Shown piece after piece: positions 54,680-56,284 of a stretch of DNA of 64,000 nucleotides. The stretch is from contig JAQGBZ010000184.1 in the NCBI GenBank assembly GCA_034687125.1, forward strand, positions 59,075-123,074. The letters are read 5' to 3'. Under the pieces are notes generated by a model that ran no database searches, was not told where the DNA came from, and saw nothing but the letters and a program-made list of their open reading frames with translations. This DNA comes from Neelides folsomi (taxonomy: Eukaryota > Arthropoda > Collembola > Neelipleona > Neelidae). The first letter of the stretch is position 1. The number at the start of each line of letters is the position of its first letter. Both the position numbers and the translations under genes were made by a program.

Positions 54680-54807
54680 ATGGAAAAGATTGAAAAGACT
54701 GTCAGATGGTCAGAAGGGTCGGGGTCACCCTCGGTGACCTCCATTATGCCAGTACGCTCTTTGTCTGAATCTCCATCAATTGATTGTGGTGGATCTGATC
54801 ATAGCAG
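54680..54807 (+). CDS. Putative alternative coding first exon of MRLC
   Basis: Within the 5' UTR intron, an ATG with A at -3 and G at +4 opens 42 codons plus two bases and ends at CAG|GTAAAA (54807/54808). Spliced to the MRLC acceptor at 55450, the split codon AG|G is Arg and the next codon is the normal MRLC ATG, in frame. The added segment is Ser/Pro-rich (MEKIEKTVRWSEGSGSPSVT then SIMPVRSLSESPSIDCGG) and is much less AT-rich than the intron around it, as real exons here are. It would add 43 residues to the light chain. It needs its own promoter or an upstream non-coding exon. Alternative: an exon of an unseen gene, or chance. Confidence 0.5.
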
Positions 54808-55451
54808 GTAAAAAATAAGATGGGGATCATTAGGAGAGACTTATTATATTATTTAGGAAGTATTTGAAGACCTGAAAACTAAATATTTTATACAACAACT
54901 TTTTATAACAACTTTATTATTTTTAAGTAATTTAATCGGATTTTGTAATTTATAAATTGTAACGACCTTTACCTATAAAGATGATACTAAAATAATATCA
55001 ATTCGCTGATTTGTTTTTTGAGCCAAATCTTATAATAGCCTTTCAAGTTTAACAAAGTTCAAGAGCTCAAGTTCACTTGAGTGCATATAGGGTTAGGCCG
55101 GGCTATAATGAAGCGTGAAGAATTTTAAAAAGCATTTCGATGTAATTTGACGAAGCTATCAGGCTTAAATGTGTTTACGAAATACGAAAAGTGAGAATTA
55201 ATGATGAAAGAATGTTGAAGGTAAAGACAGAAAAGGTTCCATGTCATTCAGAGAACCATCTCACATTCTTTAACTTTTTAGGATAGTTTGCCAACGAATG
55301 TAATCTCATGACCATCTGTTTCCGGTCTAACCAGATTAACTTTATTCTCCTTCGTTGACTCCCATCAAACCCATTTCCCTCTTTTTATGTAATTTCCGCA
55401 AAAGTCTGAAAAGAATTTGTGCTCAAATGTCATATTTTTCTCGTTCACAGG

Positions 55452-56284
55452 ATGTCTGCCCGAAAGACAGGTCGTCGTGGGGTGACGAAGAAAAGGGCCC
55501 AAAGGGCAACTTCCAATGTTTTTGCCATGTTCGACCAGGCTCAGATTCAAGAGTTCAAAGAGGCCTTCAACATGATTGACCAGAACAGAGACGGTTTCAT
55601 TGACAAGGACGACCTCCATGATATGCTCGCCTCTCTTGGTATAATTTTTATAAATGGCTGAATTAATCATTTCGCATCGTAGATTTAAAATGAAAAGTGT
55701 TCGTGTTTTTGCACAAATTAATTTTTTAAATTGTTTGTTCATAGGAAAAAATCCCACTGATGAGTATCTTGAAGGGATGATGAATGAAGCACCAGGGCCA
55801 ATCAACTTCACCATGTTCCTCACGTTATTCGGTGAGCGGCTCCAAGGGACGGATCCTGAGGAAGTCATTAAAAACGCCTTCGGTTGCTTTGATGAAGAGA
55901 ACGGTGGCTTTGTGAATGAAGAGAAGCTCCGGGAACTTTTGACTTCGATGGGAGATAGATTCTCCGATGAGGATGTAAGTCATAAATATTATATTTGATA
56001 CTTCTATTATACTTCATAAAATATTATAGCAATATCTGTATACTTTATATTTATTTATATATAACATATCTACAGTAGTTTTTAGTATCCGTACTTGTGT
56101 ATTTTAACCCTTATTTAATACATTTCACTTTATTAAATAAATTACTGCTTCTAAATTGAACTAAATGAATGAATGGGTTTAGGTGGACGAGATGTTCCGA
56201 GAGGCCCCGATTAAAAACGGGATGTTCAACTACATTGAGTTCACGCGGATCCTGAAGCATGGAGCTAAAGACAAGGACGAGTAA
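55452..56284 (+). CDS. MYL9: Non-muscle/smooth-type myosin regulatory light chain
   Basis: EF-hand light chain of myosin II (Drosophila spaghetti squash type), controlling contractility and cytokinesis. Exons: 55452-55638, 55745-55974, 56183-56284; in phase, 172 residues, the standard length. The N-terminal kinase site [12 protein letters not shown] keeps the Thr-Ser pair phosphorylated by MLCK and ROCK. The first EF-hand loop [12 protein letters not shown] is intact; the later hands are degenerate ([14 protein letters not shown]), as is usual. Ends [14 protein letters not shown]. The ATG lies one base after a TTCACAG acceptor, so the 5' UTR is spliced from upstream; an alternative coding first exon may join here. 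Paralogues MYL12/MYL9 cannot be told apart in an arthropod. Confidence 0.95.

Follow-up and report, generated by a model that had tools for sequence, protein, structure and literature searches.

The MRLC Gene and Its Canonical Product

The window (the 64-kb stretch of Neelides folsomi DNA that was analysed) contains a gene for a myosin regulatory light chain (MRLC) on the plus strand. The gene's product of 172 residues is encoded by three exons, ahead of which lie a 5' exon, presumed to be non-coding, and a first intron of roughly 1.05 kb. The 5' UTR exon, the 3' part of which occupies positions 54360–54400 (+), was placed by means of its donor (AAG|GTGAGT, after 54400) and its GC content (0.533 over 54250–54401). 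The exon at 55451–55638 (+) follows the acceptor TTCACAG|G and carries the canonical ATG at 55452. Translation and homology define the two remaining coding exons, at 55745–55974 (+) and 56183–56284 (+); the latter includes the stop codon at 56282–56284.

To which class does this light chain belong? The canonical protein matches the EF-hand fold at the sequence level (EF-hand_7 in Pfam, 6.3e-16), and its translation contains an MLCK-type Thr/Ser with upstream basic residues, in a 12-residue segment that aligns to that of MYL9. Among the PDB matches listed (60 of 386), its core is closest to MYL9 (6xe9, 309.4 bits) and MYL12B (9z3w, 300.1 bits), and these alignments span nearly the whole protein; the similarity to muscle RLCs in the same set is lower (162.7–179.5 bits for 3pn7, 5tby, 3dtp, and 7qio). 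The exon at 55745–55974 is 46% identical to fly Mlc2 and 41% identical to a shrimp RLC. Judged by its MRLC, the window looks arthropod-like. Sequence comparison thus places the canonical MRLC in the non-muscle/smooth-muscle class (sqh/MYL9-type). Like MYL9 and MYL12B, it keeps the phosphorylation-site segment.

The region upstream of the gene was also inspected. Pattern matching located two CArG (SRF-type) boxes on the plus strand, CCAAAATTGG at 54135–54144 and CCATATTTGG at 54216–54225, both upstream of the MRLC 5' UTR exon. Such boxes occur in SRF-driven cytoskeletal genes. The whole window holds six matches to the CArG pattern, with 6.32 expected; these two lie 81 nt apart. A CRE-like element, TGACGTCA, is found at 54344–54351 (+) and is the sole match to its pattern in the window (0.39 expected).

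A Candidate Coding Exon in the First Intron

Inside the first MRLC intron lies a 128-nt stretch, at 54680–54807 (+), that is a candidate coding exon. It begins with an ATG at 54680 that has an A at −3 and a G at +4, remains open for 42 codons, and ends at the donor CAG|GTAAAA, whose GT occupies 54808–54809; it encodes MEKIEKTVRWSEGSGSPSVTSIMPVRSLSESPSIDCGGSDHS and supplies the first two bases of a junction Arg codon. The preliminary description of this DNA had proposed such an exon, and its coordinates, its frame, and the strength of its ATG context all proved to be right. The same is true of the claim that splicing to the acceptor before the MRLC ATG preserves the frame. The acceptor AG is located at 55449–55450, and a lone G at 55451 precedes the canonical ATG; this G completes the Arg codon begun by the last two bases of the exon, AG, such that 128 + 1 nt make up 43 codons. 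Upon conceptual splicing and translation, the joined frame reads through to the MRLC stop and gives 215 residues, as compared with 172 for the canonical product. The extended translation contains the junction HSRMSAR and SLSESPSIDCGGSDHSR, a predicted tryptic peptide. The exon is also, as had been described, richer in GC than the intron around it (0.469 vs. 0.263 for 54402–54679 and 0.313 for 54808–55450).

An in-frame TAA is found at 54656–54658 (+), 21 nt before the ATG and with no AG in between. Because of this arrangement, the ATG at 54680 is the only possible start for the exon, and an internal coding exon with an upstream reading frame was ruled out. The donor, viewed in the slightly longer context GCAG|GTAAAA, matches the putative donor of a neighbouring PP2C-type gene after 52962 (GCAG|GTAAAATA); the two halves of the PP2C domain (Pfam) flank the intron in question.

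Alternative First Exon or Cassette Exon

The stretch had originally been described as an alternative first exon. The in-frame 43-residue extension implied by that description stands, but first-exon status is not the sole option, as a cassette exon at 54647–54807 fits equally well. It would be created by a possible acceptor, CTCAAG at 54641–54646 (+), which is the nearest to the ATG of the eight AGs listed in 54402–54680. The sequence upstream of the AG at 54646 (ATTATCTCAAG) has 11 pyrimidines in 17 positions. Further, CTCAAG resembles the ATCAAG acceptor at 52322 of the PP2C-type gene, which was deduced from that gene's reading frame and likewise has 11 of 17 pyrimidines. The leader that a cassette message would have, consisting of 54361–54400 and 54647–54679, is devoid of ATG, and the exon's own ATG comes first. 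No sign of a transcription start was noticed in the AT-rich intron. Given the acceptor-like AG and the ATG-free leader, a cassette that follows the shared 5' UTR exon and is driven from the common promoter is at least as likely as an alternative first exon. Another acceptor-like sequence, CTAG at 54525, was considered by eye for the cassette model and set aside, as an ATG follows at 54530.

The leader is also pertinent to the idea that the exon is transcribed but is regulatory or non-productive, either as a leader variant or because it is spliced elsewhere, with the long protein not made in quantity. Although exons in first introns are often leader variants, the first ATG of the cassette leader examined is the exon's own, and its frame enters MRLC without a stop; inclusion would therefore yield the long protein and not a uORF. 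Were the exon spliced instead to the MRLC exon that follows next, the frame would be lost (phase 2 vs. phase 1, from the exon lengths). We regard a non-productive message as very improbable.

Coding Potential and the Role of Chance

Coding potential was scored with a codon model trained on 31 ORFs (4,536 codons), which an iterative fit had selected in the window and in a sample of 19 stretches of 10 kb each; ORFs overlapping 54300–55460 were excluded. The candidate exon scores +6.3 bits over its 42 codons, and the other five frames score −11.3, −32.8, −22.2, 0.9, and −15.9. In their own frames, the accepted MRLC exons score 18.7, 19.9, and 2.7 bits, the last after a penalty of 8 for its stop. 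The model lacks sharpness: the antisense frames of these accepted exons score up to 10.8, 9.8, and 7.6, and that of the last exon outscores the true frame, stop penalty included.

These scores must be weighed with a second explanation in mind, namely chance: a GC-richer patch of the first intron (perhaps an enhancer) would merely happen to contain an open ATG frame, a fair donor, and the right phase, and only the 172-residue protein would be made. The phase alone fits one time in three. As a control, 3,000 random introns were generated from an order-2 Markov model of the intron, with a donor threshold of 7 of 9. An ATG followed by at least 42 codons and ending at a donor appeared in 129 of them. 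Adding a strong ATG context and phase 2 reduced this number to 2 of 3,000, and adding the coding score reduced it to 0 of 3,000. When the candidate exon was left out of the Markov model, the same three counts were 78, 0, and 0 of 3,000. These results argue against chance.

Stricter controls favour a coding exon less. Dinucleotide shuffles of the exon stay open in 2,622 of 20,000 cases, and 267 of the 20,000 are open and score as well as the exon does. The sampled DNA amounts to 254 kb with 31,885 bases masked, a light mask that leaves real exons among the frames. In this set, 40 of 772 open 42-codon ATG frames (the candidate is one of the 772) score at least 6.3, as do 33 of the 270 open ATG frames that are matched in GC content (0.42–0.52). 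The exon has a modest codon score, and GC content accounts for part of it. A search of both strands of the 254 kb for the same ATG-to-donor design and score returned 31 matches, many of which are, by eye, coding exons or their antisense shadows; by score, the candidate exon ranks last among them.

Taken as a single intron, then, the exon is better than chance, but the result is not decisive given that a 64-kb window was scanned for striking things. Chance would produce such an arrangement in perhaps one in a hundred introns of such size, a figure that is our own estimate rather than a computed value. Weighing it with the low prior for an unreported exon and with the scan of the whole window, we arrive at about even odds for the isoform. 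Chance is a strong competitor, to which we accord somewhat under an even likelihood.

Homology Searches

The 43-residue extension was used as a query in several searches. It has no match in Pfam and none in the PDB (cut-off E 10), and no RLC alignment among the PDB matches listed (60 of 386) reaches residues 1–43 of the extended protein. Here the long form differs from MYL9 and MYL12B, which align only from query residue 46–48 onward among those same 60 of 386 matches. The lack of matches to the extension in Pfam and the PDB, and of RLC alignments over residues 1–43 among those listed, is in keeping with a chance origin.

In the same genome assembly, protein and DNA searches returned one match to the extension, at its own locus, and no further copy. 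An origin from a repeat was rejected, as there is no second copy in the assembly and the region has only short two-copy matches. Prokaryote and viral contigs were searched with stray animal contigs in mind; 24 stretches of the former and 10 of the latter matched a peptide pattern, and none was confirmed as a relative. When 53500–56600 was searched for structured RNA, nothing in Rfam reached the gathering score.

Other open frames in the window were recorded during this work. An ATG-to-donor frame on the plus strand at 40545–40691 scores 16.4 bits, has a strong ATG context (RRKSLSSASSSSDE), and lies just upstream of a long open frame at 40812–41492. A GC-rich open frame at 57412–57575 (+) ends at a donor and scores 19.6 bits; it is a possible 5' exon of a gene downstream of MRLC. 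On the minus strand, an open frame at 49136–49579 weakly resembles the RAMA domain (PF18755), with 25.8 bits against a cut-off of 35.2.

Features of the Predicted N-Terminal Arm

The predicted arm of 43 residues contains 11 Ser and 3 Pro. It had been characterized as Ser/Pro-rich; the description holds for Ser and fails for Pro. By eye, two SP sites and one RxxS can be made out in this arm, which is probably disordered.

Codons 6–10 (54695–54709, +) spell KTVRW, a look-alike of RVxF, the docking motif for protein phosphatase 1 (PP1). The peptide, which was picked post hoc, fits two RVxF patterns, and shuffles of the extension fit them as well (2,787 of 100,000 for the loose pattern and 234 of 100,000 for the strict one). 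A putative PP1-docking site on the myosin light chain itself is only a lead. Because PP1 with MYPT1 constitutes the myosin phosphatase, docking of the enzyme on its own substrate would, if true, be a neat mechanism.

Comparison with Known Extended Light Chains

To our knowledge, N-terminal arms on RLCs are known only from muscle-class chains. The arm of Drosophila Mlc2 is rich in Lys, Ala, and Pro, whereas the candidate arm is rich in Ser. In size, the candidate arm is similar to those of arthropod muscle RLCs that carry an extension (Drosophila Mlc2 and tarantula 3dtp/3jbh). In those proteins, however, the arm sits on a muscle-class chain; here, the gene is of the non-muscle class, and the arm would come from an exon that is optional. 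Among the PDB matches listed, 3dtp_E (196 residues) aligns from its own residue 35 to residue 54 of the query. One report describes an extension of 46 residues in Drosophila, gives 196 and 235 residues as the lengths of tarantula RLCs, and states that such extensions in invertebrate muscle are proposed to connect thick and thin filaments (PMC2674065).

The initial assertion that a longer isoform would be new is accordingly too wide for RLCs overall, because extensions are known from invertebrate muscle, as in the report just cited; for the non-muscle class, no example was found. Specifically, no N-terminally extended non-muscle RLC arising from an optional exon was encountered in the open-licence literature as represented by titles and the starts of abstracts. 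Passages of a review from 2026 on non-muscle myosin II (PMC13031461) lack the phrase “N-terminal extension”, and their one mention of an “alternative promoter” refers to MYLK1, a kinase gene. The novelty would be an N-terminal extension by way of an optional exon of a non-muscle-class gene.

A Single RLC Gene?

A more far-reaching possibility is that a single RLC gene serves both muscle and non-muscle myosin II, with the optional exon supplying the arm that in some other arthropods is found on a distinct muscle RLC, and perhaps a PP1-docking site as well. We consider this proposal unlikely. In its favour, a muscle-class RLC was not found in the same, incomplete genome assembly with two queries (fly and shrimp muscle RLCs): the best match to each was the MRLC gene, followed by calmodulin-like loci. 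Two loci (C96 and C336) were considered as possible muscle RLCs and rejected, as their sequences read, by eye, as calmodulin or calmodulin-like. Yet six contigs carry matches to both the myosin head and the myosin II tail.

The incompleteness of the assembly is evident in its 12 distinct proteasome contigs and 6 chaperonin contigs; these counts are lower bounds, to be compared with expectations of about 14 and 9 genes, respectively. For this reason, the absence of a muscle RLC is weak evidence, and the gene may be missing from the assembly rather than from the animal. In the copepod Eurytemora affinis, one gene is annotated as “myosin regulatory light chain 2-like” (PMC8536038); by analogy, this would count against a single RLC gene.

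Interpretation and Significance

In the explanation that we deem best, and to which we assign a probability of roughly 0.5, the sqh/MYL9-type MRLC gene does have an optional coding exon in this 128-nt stretch, which adds a 43-residue arm when included. We infer that the exon is transcribed and spliced in this form. Its inclusion, whether it is a cassette downstream of the shared 5' UTR exon or an alternative first exon, would give rise to a 215-residue light chain in which a Ser-rich, probably disordered arm precedes the Thr/Ser at which members of this class are phosphorylated; without the exon, translation would start at the usual ATG. The arm could then alter the phosphorylation, dephosphorylation, or placement of the light chain. 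PP1 docking through KTVRW is one possible route to such an effect; another is a link between thick and thin filaments, of the kind suggested for extended RLCs in invertebrate muscle.

If the exon is real, the choice of one exon would decide whether a core regulator of myosin II has a bare or an armed N-terminus, directly before the regulatory phosphorylation site. The role of RLC N-terminal arms would become testable within one gene. It would also hint at how light chains of the muscle and non-muscle classes could diverge or merge.
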